From positions 62,001-126,000 of the forward strand of contig JAEUJY010000059.1 in assembly GCA_016794525.1 (NCBI GenBank): a stretch of DNA of 64,000 nt. Direction: 5' to 3'. The DNA is from Myxococcales bacterium. Lineage in GTDB: Bacteria; Myxococcota_A; Polyangia; Haliangiales; Haliangiaceae. Below, one piece after another: positions 57,651-64,000 of this stretch; position 1 is the first letter of the stretch; each line of letters starts with the position of its first letter. Below the pieces are notes generated by a model. It did no database searches, was not told where the DNA came from, and was given only the letters and a program-made list of their open reading frames with translations. Made by a program: the position numbers and the translations under genes.

Positions 57651-58964
57651 TTGTCCGACACCCCGCAGCCGACGCGCAGCTTCCCGGGTGGCCCGCGCCG
57701 GCGGGTCGCCTTCCTGGTCGCGGTGGCGGTGGGCGTGTTCTTCGTGCCGCGATGGTGGGGCGTCGCCATCGCGCTCGCCGCGATGGCGGGCGCGTGGGTG
57801 TGGCTCGGGCTCGGCGGCCAGCGGGTGCTGCGGCAGATCCGCAAGCTGATCCCGATCTCGCTGTTGTTCATCGCCGGCTACGCGCTGTTCTCCGACGATC
57901 CCGCGCGCGATCAGTGGTGGACGCTCGACCTCGGGGTCGTCCACCTCGACCTCAACGCGTGGGGCGCCGAGCTGGGCCTGACGATGGCGCTGCGGATCAT
58001 CACGGTCGTGCTGGCGTCCCACGTCGCCCGCGCCGGTGACGCGCGGGCGCTGGCCCACGGCCTGCGCAAGCTCGGCATGCCGCGCCTGGCCGCGGTGGCG
58101 ATCGACGCGACGCTGATGCTCCTCGACGGCGGCATGCGCGGCGGCGGCGGCCGGGGGCGCGGCGGCGGCGGTGGTGGTGGACGTGGCGGCGGCGGCGGTG
58201 GCGGTGGTGGCGGCGGCGGCGGTGGCGGCGGTGGCGGTGGCGGCGGTGGCGGCCATCACGACGACGCCACGCCCGGCGGCTTCGTCGCCGGCCTGCGCCG
58301 GCTCGCGCGCGGCGACGTCGGCGCGCTGGTCGATCCGTTCCGGCGCCACCTGCGCCGGGTCGACCGTCACCTGCGCGAGCAAGACCCCGACCTGCCGCCC
58401 CACGTCGCCACCGACGCCGGCGCGATCGCCGCGGTCGCGCTGACCATGCTCGGCGTCAAGGCGCTGAAGATCCTCCCCGGCATCCCGTTCCTGCCCGGCT
58501 ACAAGGGCGTGCTCCTCTTGCCGCTGTACCTGGTGGCCGCCGAGGTCACGCGAACCAAGGTTGGCGCCACGCTGACCGGCCTGACGATGGGCACCGTCGC
58601 GTTCCTGCTGGGCGACGGCCGCTACGGCGTGTTCGAGATCGCCAAGCACGTCACGCCGGGCATCATCGTCGACCTGCTGTACGGCCTGGCGCGCCGGGCC
58701 GCCGGCACCCACCGGATCCGCCGGATCGTCACCTACTCGACCCTGGGCCTCCTGGCCGCGCTGGGGCGGTTCGCGACGATCACGGTGATCGCCCTGGCCG
58801 TGCAGCCGCCGGCACTTGTTTACGCCGTGTTACTTCCCGGCCTCCTGGTCCACGGTATTTTCGGCGTCCTGTCGGGGGTGGTCACCGCGCCGCTCCTGAC
58901 CGCGCTGTCGTCCCCGAACGAACCGAACGAACCGCACGCCCCGCACGCCCCGGAGCCTCCATGA
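57651..58964 (+). CDS. EcfT-like membrane protein with polyglycine insert and second membrane domain
   Basis: A 437-residue protein. The N-terminal half (to about residue 160) resembles the ECF-transporter transmembrane (EcfT/CbiQ) family: hydrophobic spans, then ASHVARAGDARALAHGLRKLGMPRLAAVAIDATLMLL. A run of Gly (about residues 162-203, with few Arg and a His pair at the end) follows where EcfT has its coupling loop. The C-terminal part has about five more spans (GVLLLPLYLVAAEVTRTKVGATLTGLTMG ... VYAVLLPGLLVHGIFGVLSG) resembling an S-component. The start is TTG 57651, the only start in frame. It overlaps the first storage-protein gene by ATGA. No ATPase gene is near. Confidence 0.65.
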   Translation: MSDTPQPTRSFPGGPRRRVAFLVAVAVGVFFVPRWWGVAIALAAMAGAWVWLGLGGQRVLRQIRKLIPISLLFIAGYALFSDDPARDQWWTLDLGVVHLDLNAWGAELGLTMALRIITVVLASHVARAGDARALAHGLRKLGMPRLAAVAIDATLMLLDGGMRGGGGRGRGGGGGGGRGGGGGGGGGGGGGGGGGGGGGGGHHDDATPGGFVAGLRRLARGDVGALVDPFRRHLRRVDRHLREQDPDLPPHVATDAGAIAAVALTMLGVKALKILPGIPFLPGYKGVLLLPLYLVAAEVTRTKVGATLTGLTMGTVAFLLGDGRYGVFEIAKHVTPGIIVDLLYGLARRAAGTHRIRRIVTYSTLGLLAALGRFATITVIALAVQPPALVYAVLLPGLLVHGIFGVLSGVVTAPLLTALSSPNEPNEPHAPHAPEPP

Positions 58965-59806
58965 GCAACCTCGTCAGCGGCGATGGCCGCACCCACATCG
59001 AGTCGCGTCTGATGCGCGAGTCGCTCCAGGATCGGCGCGTCGTCGCCGGCACCGACAGCGACCGCGACGTCCACATCTTCCCCGACGCCGCGCTGATCGG
59101 CATCGGCGGCCAGAGCATCTTCGACCGCGGCAAGGACGCGATCCTGCCGCTGGTCGACGAGATCGCCGCGATCAAGCGCGACCTCGGCAAGAAGATGGTG
59201 CTGGCCGTCGGCGGCGGCACCCGGGTCCGGCACACGCTGTCGGTCGCGCTCGACCTCGGCCTGCCGGTCGGCGGCATCGCGCAGCTGATCGGCGCGATGG
59301 AGGAGCTCAACGCGATCCTGCTCAACACGCTCTTGGCCAAGCACGGCTCGATGCCGATGCAGCGCGATCACTTCTGGGATCTGCCGCTGTACTTCTCGTC
59401 GGGCATCCTGCCGATCGCGATCTCGATCCCGCCGTACCACTTCTGGGAGCCGCCGCCCGACGAGGGCGTGCTGCCGCAGCACGGCTCCGACTTCGGCCTG
59501 TTCCAGCTGGCCGAGGTGCTGTCGATGGGGCAGCTGATCTTCGTCAAGGATCAGGACGGCCTCTACGACAAGGACCCCGCGGTCCACGCCGACGCGCGCC
59601 ACATCCCGCGCATCACGCTGGCCGAGCTGCTGGCCAACCCGCCGCCGACCAACATCCTCGACGCCGAGCTGTTCCGGGCCTGGGCCACCGCCAAGAACAT
59701 CACCCGCGTCCAGATCGTCAACGGCCTCAAGCCGGGCATGCTCACCGCCGCGATCCGCGGCGAGGACGTCGGCACGGTCATCGTCAAGGAGGGCGGCCGT
59801 GGCTGA
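58961..59806 (+). CDS. Molybdenum storage protein-like subunit (amino-acid-kinase fold)
   Basis: A 281-residue protein of the amino-acid-kinase fold. IGGQSIFDRG (47-56), AVGGGTRVRH (82-91), LDLGLPVGG, IPPYHFWEPP (157-166) and VQIVNGLKPGMLTAAIRGEDVG (250-271, shown in part) match the molybdenum storage proteins MosA/MosB, which hold polyoxomolybdate clusters, rather than UMP kinase or glutamate kinase. It lacks the SRIPPHR version found in its partner (DEGVLPQHGSDFG instead). ATGA coupling to the upstream EcfT-like gene, 8-bp overlap with its partner. Confidence 0.82.
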   Translation: MSNLVSGDGRTHIESRLMRESLQDRRVVAGTDSDRDVHIFPDAALIGIGGQSIFDRGKDAILPLVDEIAAIKRDLGKKMVLAVGGGTRVRHTLSVALDLGLPVGGIAQLIGAMEELNAILLNTLLAKHGSMPMQRDHFWDLPLYFSSGILPIAISIPPYHFWEPPPDEGVLPQHGSDFGLFQLAEVLSMGQLIFVKDQDGLYDKDPAVHADARHIPRITLAELLANPPPTNILDAELFRAWATAKNITRVQIVNGLKPGMLTAAIRGEDVGTVIVKEGGRG

Positions 59807-60602
59807 CCGCAAGATCATCGAGTCGACGCTCGCCCGCACCAACCTGACCGATCACGACCTCGCCAACGTCGCGTACTCGCCGACCGCGGTGATGCCCGAC
59901 GTCCGGGTGGTCAAGATCGGCGGCCAGTCGGTGATGGACCGCGGCCGCGCCGCGCTGTTCCCGATCCTCGACGAGCTGGTCGCCGCCCGCAAGGAGGGCA
60001 TCCAGGTCGTCGTGCTGGTCGGCGGCGGCACCCGCGCGCGCCACATCTACTCGATCGCCAGCGAGCTCGAGATGCCGGTCGGCGTGATGGCCACGCTCGG
60101 CAAGTACATCCCGATGCAGAACGCGCGGATGGTGCAGATGCTGCTCGCCAAGCACGGCGGCCTGTACATCCTGCCCGACGACTTCGAGAAGCTACCGCTG
60201 TACCTGCAGCTCGGCTGCCTGCCGGTGATGAGCGGCATGCCGCCGTTCGGCTACTGGGAGAAGCGCGAGGAGGGCAGCCGCATCCCGCCGCACCGCACCG
60301 ACGCCGGCGTGTTCCTGTCGGCCGAGTTCCTGGGCGCGCGCCGCGCGATCTTCATCAAGGACGAGGACGGCCTGTACACCGACGACCCGAAGAAGAACCC
60401 CGCGGCGACCCACATCCCGCGGATCTCGGTCGCCGACCTCAAGGCCCGCGACCTGCCCGACCTCGTCGTCGAGCGCGTCGTCCTCGACTACCTGCCCCGC
60501 GCCCGCGCCTGCAAGGAGCTGCAGATCGTCAACGGCACCACGCCGGGCACCGTCCTCGCCGCCCTCCGCGGCCAGGACGTCGGCACCATCATCCACGCCT
60601 GA
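59799..60602 (+). CDS. Molybdenum storage protein-like subunit, partner
   Basis: A 267-residue paralogue of the preceding protein (KIGGQSVMDRG, LVGGGTRARH, GMPPFGYWE, GSRIPPHRTDAGVFL, LQIVNGTTPGTVLAALRGQDVG, shown in part). SRIPPHR-(T/A)-D is the best match to the storage-protein pair of Azotobacter vinelandii that I recall. Two such genes in tandem, with different cluster-region loops, fit the alpha/beta hetero-hexamer. GTG 59799 has AGGAGGG upstream and overlaps the preceding stop by 8 bp. The 3' end adjoins a hexamer array within 5 bp. Confidence 0.83.
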   Translation: MADRKIIESTLARTNLTDHDLANVAYSPTAVMPDVRVVKIGGQSVMDRGRAALFPILDELVAARKEGIQVVVLVGGGTRARHIYSIASELEMPVGVMATLGKYIPMQNARMVQMLLAKHGGLYILPDDFEKLPLYLQLGCLPVMSGMPPFGYWEKREEGSRIPPHRTDAGVFLSAEFLGARRAIFIKDEDGLYTDDPKKNPAATHIPRISVADLKARDLPDLVVERVVLDYLPRARACKELQIVNGTTPGTVLAALRGQDVGTIIHA

Positions 60603-60606
60603 AACC

Positions 60607-60952
60607 CGAACCCGGATCGAGATCCGGATCGGGATCGGGATCCGGATCGGGATCCGGATCGGGAGCCGGATCGGGATCCGGATCCGGATCGGGATCGGGA
60701 TCCGGATCGGGATCCGGATCGGGATCCGTCGCCGGATCCGGTTCCGGAACCGGTCGCCGTCGCGGCCACGGTCACGGTCGCCGTCGCGGTCGCCGTCGCG
60801 GCCACGGTCGCCGTCACGGTCGCGGCCGCCGTCGCGGTCACGGTCGCCGTCGCGGTCGCGGCCACGGTCGCCGTCGCGGTCGCGGTCGCGGCCACGGTCG
60901 CCGTCGCCGTCGCGGTCGCGGCCGCGGTCGCCGTCGCGGCCGCGGCCGCGGC
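60607..60952. repeat. Hexamer arrays GGATCC/GGATCG and GGTCGC/GGCCAC
   Basis: About 120 bp of GATCCG/GATCGG units followed by about 215 bp of GTCGCG/GGCCAC/GGTCGC units, filling the convergent gap from the storage-protein gene (stop 60602) to the stop codon at 60953. Open frames within it are repeat artefacts; no gene is seen. Confidence 0.94.
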
Positions 60953-61720
60953 CTACTGAGCGGGTCCGCCCTTGTCGGCCTCGCGCTCCTTGCCGTGGCC
61001 ATCCCCCTCGCCCGAGTGGTTCCCGCCGTGGTCGCCCTTGCCGCCGCCGGCGCCCGCGCCCTTGCCGGCCTCGCCGTCCGGCGGCACGGTGGCCGGCCGG
61101 AAGGCGTTCATCTTGTCGATGCGGGTCACGACCTCCTTGGCGAGGTCGGCCGCGGTCATCGCGCCGGTCGAGGTCATGACGACCTTGACGCCGCCCTCGA
61201 TCTCCGACGAGGCGATCGTGACGTCCTTGGCGGTGATCACCGGGCACATGCCGGCGCCGCCGCCGGTGCCCTCGCCGCTGTGCTTGACGTCGGCGTCGGG
61301 CGCGGCCTGCACCGCGACCAGGTGCGCGGCGCGCTTGCGCACGGTGGCCACCGCGTCCGGATCGGTCGCGGTGATCGCCAGCGCGATCGCGTTCTTCAGC
61401 GTGGCGTCCTCGACCAGCTCGGCCTTGGCGCCGGCGACCGCCGCGGGGCAGTTGCCGGCCTTGTTCGACATGCCCGGGTCGACCCCGGTGGCCGCGGCGC
61501 TGCCGCTGCCGGCCTGGTCACCGCTGCCAGCGGCGGTGCCGGCCGCGGTGCCAGCGGCGGTCCCGGCCGCGGTGCCAGCGGCGGTCCCAGCCGCGGTGCC
61601 AGCGGCGGTCCCGGCCGCGGTGCCGGCGGCGGGCGCGGGCTTGTCGTTCTGCTTCTTCTTGCAGGCGGTCGCCGACAGGGCGACGGCCGCGATCATCACG
61701 GTGAGCGTGCGCAGGCGCAT
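60953..61720 (-). CDS. Lipoprotein with (AAGT)n repeats and His/Gly-rich tail
   Basis: A 255-residue lipoprotein (lipobox LSATAC). After a KKKQNDKPAP segment come eight AAGT repeats (a 12-bp DNA repeat, about 61530-61635), then a globular part (GNCPAAVAGAKAELVEDATLKNAIALAIT ... VKVVMTSTGAMTAADLAKEVVTRIDKMN, shown in part) with CPVI, and a tail rich in Gly, His, Lys and Glu that could bind metal. No family recognised. AGGAGG precedes ATG 61720. Its stop codon abuts the hexamer array. Confidence 0.78.
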   Translation of the reverse strand: MRLRTLTVMIAAVALSATACKKKQNDKPAPAAGTAAGTAAGTAAGTAAGTAAGTAAGTAAGTAAGSGDQAGSGSAAATGVDPGMSNKAGNCPAAVAGAKAELVEDATLKNAIALAITATDPDAVATVRKRAAHLVAVQAAPDADVKHSGEGTGGGAGMCPVITAKDVTIASSEIEGGVKVVMTSTGAMTAADLAKEVVTRIDKMNAFRPATVPPDGEAGKGAGAGGGKGDHGGNHSGEGDGHGKEREADKGGPAQ

Positions 61721-61768
61721 GGATCCTCCTCGGCGGATGCTACCCGGCGCTGCCGCGGCGCGCACCTC

Positions 61769-61822: not shown

Positions 61823-61893
61823 TCGGGGATCGTCTAATGGCAGGACGTCAGTCTCTGGAGCTGACTATCTTGGTTCGAATCCAAGTCCCCGAA
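61823..61893 (+). tRNA. tRNA-Gln (anticodon CTG)
   Basis: Seven-bp acceptor stem TCGGGGA/TCCCCGA, D arm with GG in the loop, anticodon stem TCAGT/GCTGA with loop CTCTGGA (anticodon CTG), T arm CTTGG-TTCGAAT-CCAAG, discriminator A. CCA is not encoded. It reads Gln CAG codons; the synthetase gene glnS is in the same window. Confidence 0.95.
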
Positions 61894-61905
61894 CGCAGGC
61901 CTTGA

Positions 61906-61925
61906 CGCAGAGCTTCGGTTCTGCG
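61906..61925 (+). other. UUCG-tetraloop hairpin between the two tRNAs
   Basis: CGCAGAGC-TTCG-GTTCTGCG, an 8-bp stem with one G-U pair closed by a UUCG loop. A stable spacer structure that could guide tRNA precursor processing. Confidence 0.7.
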
Positions 61926-61940
61926 ACAAGAACGCCGACC

Positions 61941-62013
61941 GGCCCCATAGTCTAGCGGTCTAGGACGTCGCCCTCTCACGGCGAAAACAAGGGTTCAAGT
62001 CCCTTTGGGGTCA
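61941..62013 (+). tRNA. tRNA-Glu (anticodon CTC)
   Basis: Acceptor stem GGCCCCA/TGGGGTC, anticodon stem TCGCC/GGCGA with loop CTCTCAC (anticodon CTC), T arm AAGGG-TTCAAGT-CCCTT, discriminator A. CCA is not encoded. It reads Glu GAG codons and is co-transcribed with tRNA-Gln. Confidence 0.95.
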
Positions 62014-62045
62014 CGACAAGACGACGGTCCACCCGGACCACAAGA

Positions 62046-62106: not shown

Positions 62107-64000
62107 TCACCGCGCGGTGATCGTGCCGCGGATCATGTCCATGCCGCAGGCGTAGGTGACGGTGCCGGCGGTCGGGAAGGTCACCGGCACCTCGACCGCC
62201 TGGTTCAACGGCAAGGGCTGGACGATGCGGCGGCCGGCGACCGTCATGACGACCTCGGTGGCGCAGGTCCGGGCGGTCGTGCGCTCGAAGACCAGGACCA
62301 CCGGTGCGCCGACGGGGACGGTCGCGTCGGCGGGCTGGAAGCCGGCCTCCGTGACGGTGATCGAGACGCGGGCCGGGCGCTTCGGCGGCGGACGCTTCGG
62401 CGGGGGCCGCTGCGGCCGCGCCGCCGCAGGTGGCCCGGGGGTGGGCGCTGACGGGCGCGGGGGCGCGACCGCGGCGCGGACCCGCGCGACCAGCGCGTCG
62501 AGATCGTCGCCGGCTTCGACCTCCAGGACCTTCCGCCCGGCGGCGTCGAACACGACCACGTACGGCAACGGGATCGTCCACGCGTCCGACCGGCTGACGT
62601 CGACGCGACGCAGCGCGAGGCGATCCGGCTGGGCGCGGACCAGGTCGACCAGGATCGGCGCGAGCGTCTGGCACGGCGCGCACCACGTCGCCCACACGTC
62701 GACGATCGTCACCTTGCCGGCGACCGGCGCCAGCGCCTGACCGGGCGCGGGCTCGGGGATGTCGGCGATGTCGAGCCCGTCCGCGACAGGTGGCGGCGCG
62801 TCGGCCACATGGTCGTGCGCGTCGTGCGCGTCGTGCGCGTCGTGCGCGTCGTGCGCGTCGTGCGCGTGTGCGTCCTCACCGCCGTGGTCGTGATCGCCGT
62901 CGCCGTGATCGCCGTGGTCGTGATCGCCGTGGTCGTGCTCGTCGTCGTGCTCGTCGTCGTGCGCGTCGTCGTGCGCGTCCGCGCGCGCGGCGCCGCCGAA
63001 CGTCCACGCCACGCCGAGCTCGACGATCGCGGGCATCGCGAGCTGACCGCCGACCACCCGGGTGACGACCGGCACCTTCACCCCGAGGTCGAGCGCGAGC
63101 CGCGGCGAGGCGTTCCACGTCGCGCCGGCGGCGAGCATCGCGTCGAGGCGCCCCTGGTTGCCGTCGTCGGTGGGGACCACCCCGCCCCACCGCTCCGCGG
63201 TCTCGGCCTGGACCTCGGCGCCGCCGCGCAGCGTCCACCGCGCGCCGACGCTGCGGCGCGCCGACGCGCCCGCCGCGTAGCGGTCGCCGGCCTGGTAGCC
63301 CTCGCCGTTGGCGTACAGCGTCTGCTGCGTGAACCCGAAGCCGCCGACGCGCCACCGCCCGACGCTGCGGCTCGCCTCGAGCGTCAGCACCGGGTTCACC
63401 GTGCCGGTGCCCAGCTGGATGTGCTGGTGCGCCAGCCCCTGCGCGCCGCGCGCGAACGGATCGGCCTCGGTGCGACCGAGCGGCACGGTGACCCCGGCGC
63501 GGCCGGCCACGCGCCACGCGCCGAGGACGCGGCCGTACCCGCCGAGCACCATCGGGTCGCCGAGCCCCGCGACCGTCTCGTCGCGGTGGTGGATCCCCGG
63601 CGTGGTCAGCGCGACCGCCACGCCGGCGGCGTCGTAGTAGTCGATCGTCGTCGCGGTCAGGCGCAGCGGCAGCACCAGCGACGCGCCGAACCCGCCCGGC
63701 AGCCCGACGTCGGCGCCGAGCCGCGCCTCGGTGATCGCCAGGTGCTGATCGTGGACGATGTCGATCTCGCCGCGGCCGACGACGTCGTCGCGATCGTCGT
63801 GGGTGGTGTGGACCGCCGTCGCCAGCCAGCTCAGGTGGAGGGCCACCTGCCCGGCGGCGAGCGTCGCGTCGTCGACCTTCCCGACCGGGAGGTTGGGGTT
63901 GCTTCAACCCGCGCAGGCCCCGCCGGCCCGCGCGTCGTCGGGCGCGAGCCCGAGCGCCAGGGCGGCGACGAGCAGCGCGGCGGGGCGGACCCGGATCGAC
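62107..64000 (-). CDS. Candidate selenoprotein: signal peptide, beta-barrel, His/Asp-rich linker, thioredoxin and cupredoxin domains (5' end beyond window)
   Basis: In one frame from the right edge: signal peptide (IRVRPAALLVAALALGLAPD, then DARA), mature GGACAG, an in-frame TGA at 63904-63906, then SNPNLPVGKVDDATLAAGQV and an outer-membrane barrel of about 270 residues (strands LGADVGLPGGFGASLVLPLRL, WRVAGRAGVTVPLG and so on). A His/Asp-rich stretch follows (62800-62990, repeated HDA from a 9-bp DNA repeat), then a thioredoxin domain with WCAPC (62671-62685) and a C-terminal cupredoxin-like domain with CATEV and YACGMDM (possible Cu ligands). Reading TGA as selenocysteine gives CAGU, a CxxU redox motif. 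A stop-codon pseudogene is possible but the downstream frame is fully intact. The N-terminal start lies outside. Confidence 0.72.
63875..63893 (-). promoter_or_regulatory. Candidate bacterial SECIS element
   Basis: Directly downstream of the TGA (minus strand): stem ACCU-CCC / GGG-(bulged A)-AGGU with apical loop GGUC. The loop begins 18 bases after the TGA and starts with GG, which fits the known bacterial pattern (loop 16-37 nt after TGA, G in the first two loop bases, GGU core bound by SelB). The helix is seven pairs long. Confidence 0.62.

Follow-up and report, generated by a model that had tools for sequence, protein, structure and literature searches.

Known outer-membrane channels and selenoproteins

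The nearest described structures to the barrel treated here are those of the COG4313 channels, represented by Pput2725 (PDB entry 4rl8), and of FapF, which have in common with it a 12-stranded barrel extending over nearly the whole of its model. The Pput2725 channel is narrowed by its own first 14 residues, which enter the lumen from the periplasmic side and fold there (PMC4493636). Pput2725 and FapF differ from the present family in sequence (11-14% identity), and the portions of the published accounts available for them describe neither a selenocysteine or CxxC tip nor a thioredoxin partner.

Outer-membrane barrel selenoproteins are already known as a kind (NF041027, NF049945). GSU2204, an MtrB/PioB-like protein (NF041027) that forms a barrel in the outer membrane, is catalogued among the selenoproteins (PMC13188914), and TonB-dependent receptors of the FCYXU type (NF049945) are outer-membrane selenoproteins with a CxxU motif. 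The family differs from the former in that the members scanned match neither its NCBIfam model (11 members) nor Pfam MtrB/PioB, and from the latter, a TonB receptor family, in that 11 scanned members do not match its model. A selenocysteine pair spaced three apart (UxxU) likewise occurs in a Prx-like thiol:disulfide oxidoreductase and in the metal-binding protein NF041115, but the domains listed for these proteins give them other folds, with no barrel tip. The thioredoxin domain that is fused to, or encoded beside, the barrel shares its WCxPC motif with periplasmic thioredoxins of the TlpA/DsbE type, from which it differs in being joined to barrel, HMA or cupredoxin modules.

Searches of 11 members against NCBIfam release 20 gave only thioredoxin or TlpA-type matches to the fused domain, or matches at chance level. 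Pfam barrel matches in the members scanned were weak or single; Phenol_MetA_deg (PF13557) exceeded its cut-off in one scanned member only (L110, 24.4 bits against 22), which is not the window protein. The 119-family selenoprotein catalogue of 2026 holds no such family, and in the openly accessible literature we found no paper joining selenoproteins with Myxococcota and, for UxxU together with the outer membrane, only reviews. A sequence-only reading that preceded this analysis knew of no described selenoprotein with this architecture, a view with which the NCBIfam and catalogue searches agree, and the family of outer-membrane channel selenoproteins is very probably undescribed.

The window gene and its reading frame

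The window, by which is meant the whole 64,000-nucleotide stretch of DNA analysed here, ends within a minus-strand gene of which the part at 62107-64000 lies inside it. The gene stops at a TGA (62107-62109); its GTG start, at a place equivalent to 64005 or 64023, falls outside the window and was therefore hidden from the sequence-only reading. A second TGA, at 63904-63906, shares its reading frame with the barrel ORF downstream and with the signal peptide upstream, and the frame is open upstream of this TGA as far as the GTG. Readthrough yields ...DDARAGGACAGUSNPNLPVGK..., so that the early claim of a frame running through the TGA into a signal peptide is borne out by in-frame translation. Since TGA serves this gene both internally and as its ordinary terminator, context must decide which of the two meanings applies.

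All parts of the predicted protein are encoded on the minus strand, in the order signal peptide, CAGU, 12-stranded barrel, His/Asp linker, thioredoxin and cupredoxin. The signal peptide (63916-64000 for most of its length, the first residues being outside the window) is recognized by its hydrophobic core in an open frame, and is followed by the C-A-G-U motif (TGC GCG GGT TGA, 63904-63915) at the predicted mature N-terminus and by S-N-P-N-L (63889-63903), which is nearly invariant in an alignment of 30 sequences. The mature N-terminal segment and the barrel, assigned to the COG4313/FapF type through an AlphaFold2 model and its PDB matches, span 62986-63915. Next comes a repetitive His/Asp-rich linker (HDHGDHDHGD..., DAHDAHDAH; 62794-62982), similar to linkers in the relatives L021, L022 and L102-L105. 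The thioredoxin domain (62455-62739; PF00085, E 5e-8, 33.3 bits against a cut-off of 23.5) carries WCAPC with its cysteine codons at 62680-62682 and 62671-62673, and the cupredoxin domain (62113-62373; Cupredoxin_1, PF13473, E 3e-7, above the Pfam gathering score) has the form C-A-T-E-V ... C-G-M-D-M. Both Pfam scores and the barrel model are in keeping with the fusion first proposed, in which CAGU precedes a barrel joined to thioredoxin and cupredoxin domains.

Other features lie close to this gene. Two tRNA genes, tRNA-Gln(ctg) and tRNA-Glu(ctc), occupy 61823-62014 on the plus strand, just past the 3' end of the barrel gene. A lipoprotein-like gene on the minus strand (60953-61765) contains a repeated AAGT stretch (a 12/24-base tandem repeat, 61525-61632), and long low-complexity tandem arrays of GGATCG and GTCGCG-type units fill 60612-60953, between two genes. 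Two adjoining plus-strand genes lie at 58961-60602; the first has molybdenum storage protein (MoSto) subunits as its PDB matches (E about 1e-59), and the second looks like the sister MoSto subunit.

Selenocysteine and cysteine across the family

Two close relatives from a scan of a genome collection, L021 (62% identical, CAG-TGA) and L022 (TGA-GCG-GGT-TGA), both keep SNPNLP intact past the TGA. A profile search for the barrel in 379 genomes from the window gene's phylum (Myxococcota) found it in 63. In the majority of relatives the protein is a barrel alone, about 340 residues long. Across the genes in which the motif is readable, it is placed directly behind the signal peptide, among the first few mature residues.

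The 64 readable genes fall into four forms: UxxU in 51, CxxU in 4 (the window gene included), CxxC in 7 and xxxC in 2, the last being one RxxC and one QxxC. Cysteine thus substitutes for selenocysteine at either position, and the window gene represents a minority form, most of its relatives (51/64) having TGA at both. The position of the window TGA is occupied by TGA in 55 of the 64 aligned homologues and by TGC or TGT in the other 9, among which are CAGCSNPNLP (L106), CPGCQNPNLP (L111, L112) and CAACGNPSLP (L117, L121). Such cysteine homologues, with CxxC ahead of SNPNLP, were what the sequence-only reading had predicted, and the region around the TGA, whose loss from homologues would have spoken against that reading, is retained. 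Alignment of UGA with cysteine codons between flanks conserved on both sides, the general mark of a selenoprotein gene, is therefore found here; N27, P28 and L30 are invariant across 30 aligned sequences, and the consensus of the mature start is [U/C]-x-x-[U/C]-x-N-P-x-L.

The same comparison bears on whether the TGA is an ordinary stop that closes a short upstream peptide, with the barrel restarting at the GTG at 63846. A mechanical ORF call does show exactly such a split, but a restart there would cost the protein its signal peptide as well as the conserved xNPxLP segment, 55 genes keep the pattern, and the cysteine forms run through in frame. An open upstream frame with a hydrophobic core is present in 63 of 63 testable homologues, and the mean peak Kyte-Doolittle value upstream of the motif is 2.49 in frame, the two alternative frames giving 0.18 and 0.07. 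An ordinary stop is exceedingly improbable.

In a maximum-likelihood tree the motif changes form at least seven times. The CxxU gene of the window is grouped with a congeneric UxxU gene (support 97/90), and the six CPGC/CAAC genes form a single clade.

With 51 of the 379 phylum genomes carrying it, the selenocysteine form is not rare in the phylum. Among 297 genomes sampled around a Geothrix genome (Acidobacteriota), four have strong matches, UxxU or CxxU, with a like hairpin. Judged from these sequences, the family is found in Myxococcota and a few Acidobacteriota, most members having two predicted selenocysteines. A deltaproteobacterial MAG (genome G380) holds a UAAU gene and two divergent CxxU barrel-thioredoxin fusions (L199, L200). 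These fusions read CxxU-NPxLPVG, and are alike to the main family in motif and hairpin and barely similar to it in the barrel; they are perhaps a second subfamily. Distant barrels in the Acidobacteriota sample (L208-L217) start CGACGC or CSTCGC directly behind the signal peptide, and are a possible cysteine-only outgroup.

The SECIS element

Bacterial SECIS elements have published limits: a loop of 3-9 nt with a G in its first two positions, a spacing of 16-37 nt, and an MFE of -7.5 or lower (PMC13188914). The SECIS-like GGUC hairpin that had been noticed behind the TGA is present at 63873-63895. Its apical loop (63883-63886) begins 17 nt past the UGA, a 4 bp core stem (UCCC/GGGA) is extended around a bulge, and the energy is -9.0 kcal/mol when the structure is made to form, all within those limits. 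Taken alone, this hairpin does not exceed chance expectation (z = 0.27 for the 44 nt fold, and the free MFE structure is another one) and, with its bulge, is among the weaker hairpins of the family. The case for a SECIS element rests on comparison, in which the signal goes far beyond chance.

In the phylum set, the best of the hairpins within 40 nt places its loop 16-18 nt past the second UGA in all 55 selenocysteine genes, and these loops begin with, or soon reach, G or GG. A strict test (stem of at least 5 bp, G in the loop, fixed spacing) was applied to these 55 genes and six more, with 18,348 further positions of those genes as background; it was passed by 57 of the 61 genes as against 5.0% of background positions. 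With GG required in the loop the figures are 53 of 61 as against 2.0%, and none of the 9 cysteine genes passes. The energy limit of -7.5 kcal/mol is reached by 60 of the 61 members but is loose, 30% of background sites passing likewise, and so loop and spacing carry the weight. Within the GGUC class there is silent covariation between the third bases of Leu and Gly codons (G-C in 13, C-G in 7), for which the Fisher p of about 9e-6 is optimistic because related sequences are counted singly. The family as a whole therefore upholds the hairpin that was first noticed in the window.

The distance to the loop is about 17 nt for the second UGA and about 26 nt for the first. This spacing suits both, and one SECIS element could serve the two codons. 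The xxxC paralogues L107 (RATC, genome G333) and L132 (QATC, genome G370) keep part of a stem with a GGUC or CGUC loop, and are perhaps former selenocysteine genes with a relic SECIS.

Selenocysteine machinery

The sequence-only reading named selA, selB, selC and selD as genes that a selenoprotein-making genome should hold. For selA, selC (tRNA-Sec, anticodon TCA) and selD this proved right. The selD gene of the genome (L017, contig C137, minus strand) itself has an in-frame TGA in the context GGGUAAK, a known selenoprotein site, and would be a second selenoprotein gene of this genome. The fourth gene, selB, was not found in the assembly, a draft of 177 contigs, by the NCBIfam model, by the SelB wing domain or with the SelB of a relative, though it is present in two genomes of the same genus and in others of the family. 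The two best candidates from the genome are EF-Tu and an EF-Tu-like protein and were rejected. In three relatives selB adjoins an AMP-ligase gene, and this gene is also absent from the assembly (best match 34%). The joint absence of selB and this neighbour suggests that a stretch is missing from the draft, rather than that selB alone was lost; an assembly gap fits, without proof. Three of ten other selenocysteine-form genomes examined, also drafts, likewise gave no selB.

Across the phylum, selA is present in 45 of the 51 genomes with the selenocysteine form as against 1 of 7 with CxxC only (p 1.4e-4); its overall frequency is 241 of 379. This co-occurrence, like the hairpin, is not expected from a sequencing error, a pseudogene or a code change by which TGA generally stands for some other amino acid. 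One draft genome by itself could not have excluded such explanations, but the TGA is common to many independent genomes, and TGA is the commonest terminator in the family (35 of 62 complete genes, that of the window among them). Taken together, explanations of this sort are scarcely credible, and from the comparative sequence evidence the TGA at 63904-63906 is almost certainly decoded as selenocysteine.

The thioredoxin partner and a possible metal site

A thioredoxin is linked to 53 of the 64 barrel genes: in 42 it is encoded upstream on the same strand, and in 11, including the window gene, it is fused behind the barrel. No such partner was found in the fetched flanks of the remaining 11. 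That a domain is fused in one lineage and encoded next door in others is a classical indication of joint function, and the window thioredoxin domain is matched by a profile built from the upstream partner genes of other loci. As judged from the sequences, thioredoxin is the partner of the barrel across the family, mostly encoded in its own gene upstream, where it is joined to a domain of metal-binding type, and it is fairly likely that it services the selenol/thiol site. An in-frame "U" in about 15 partner genes turned out to be a terminal TGA stop or a TGA upstream of the start, and the partner is no selenoprotein.

In the partner genes a heavy-metal-associated domain (HMA, PF00403) or a Cys/His-rich segment stands in front of the thioredoxin. 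Of four partners scanned with Pfam, HMA was above its cut-off in three and thioredoxin in two. The CPGC/CAAC clade and some other partners carry the Cys/His-rich segment in place of HMA, so that the metal link is not uniform. A metal-linked function has about even chances.

One account of these modules is that the selenol/thiol pair acts chiefly as a set of soft-metal ligands (copper, mercury or similar) in a channel or sensor, the thioredoxin only keeping the pair reduced. It draws on the HMA or Cys/His-rich segment of the partners, on the cupredoxin and His/Asp linker of the window gene, on near-invariant histidines in the barrel, and on the several metal-linked selenoproteins in the 2026 catalogue. 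It is weakened by the 23 neighbourhoods, in which metal-efflux genes form no recurrent cluster next to the barrel; indeed, no gene besides the thioredoxin partner recurs across them, clusters being of two only. We regard this account as a tentative one, rather doubtful in so exclusive a form.

The barrel and its predicted tip

AlphaFold modelling of the entire protein gave a poor result (pLDDT 53), set aside in favour of a model of the barrel alone, which was built from an alignment of only three sequences and has about 12 strands (pLDDT 68.7, pTM 0.64). Its best PDB match is 4rl8 (Pput2725; Z 23.9, rmsd 2.7 over 246 residues), and the FapF entries (5o65-5o68) score Z about 23; a PDB sequence search with the family profile gave no match. 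Histidines are near-invariant in the barrel of 30 members and, by our reading of the strand layout in the model, would lie towards the extracellular side.

By analogy with Pput2725, placement of the UxxU/CxxU tip in the barrel lumen is slightly favoured. The analogy has to carry this placement, since the barrel model is of moderate confidence and its first 17 residues have pLDDT below 50. One reading of such a placement is a gate: a diselenide or selenenyl-sulfide switch in a lumen-inserted N-terminus would open and close a COG4313-type channel for small molecules. The COG4313/FapF fold, the constricted lumen of Pput2725 (PMC4493636), the position of the motif within the first few mature residues, and the ability of a cysteine pair to stand in for the selenocysteine pair all suit such a gate, which by itself leaves the HMA partner without explanation. 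As the whole explanation, a gate is unlikely.

The best explanation overall, and probably the correct one, is a family of selenocysteine-tipped outer-membrane channels, serviced by thioredoxin, perhaps with a luminal site, and engaged in soft-metal or redox handling. The N-terminal segment would fold from the periplasm into the barrel lumen, as it does in the COG4313 channel Pput2725, and would thereby place two selenol/thiol groups inside the channel. The tip would cycle between a diselenide (in the window gene, a selenenyl-sulfide) and the selenol form, the attached or neighbouring thioredoxin reducing it, and would either gate the channel or bind or reduce a substrate, a soft metal or the like. 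The HMA, cupredoxin and His-rich modules, together with the histidines conserved in the barrel, favour a soft metal, copper for example. A stronger proposal, that a luminal selenocysteine pair set by a dedicated thioredoxin/metal-domain partner forms a diselenide switch that opens, closes or charges the channel, is speculative and on balance improbable. The outermost membrane has no energy source of its own, and if the proposal were true, the diselenide switch would amount to selenol-based redox control at that membrane.

Implications

The family would add a group whose members mostly have two selenocysteines to a catalogue of about 119 selenoprotein families, and its members are split at the UGA by gene callers. 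Selenol chemistry at the tip of a channel that has a thioredoxin/metal-domain partner would make the handling of redox state or of soft metals at the outer membrane directly testable. The repeated exchanges of selenocysteine and cysteine, at two adjacent sites that one SECIS element may serve, offer a natural experiment on the retention and loss of selenocysteine.
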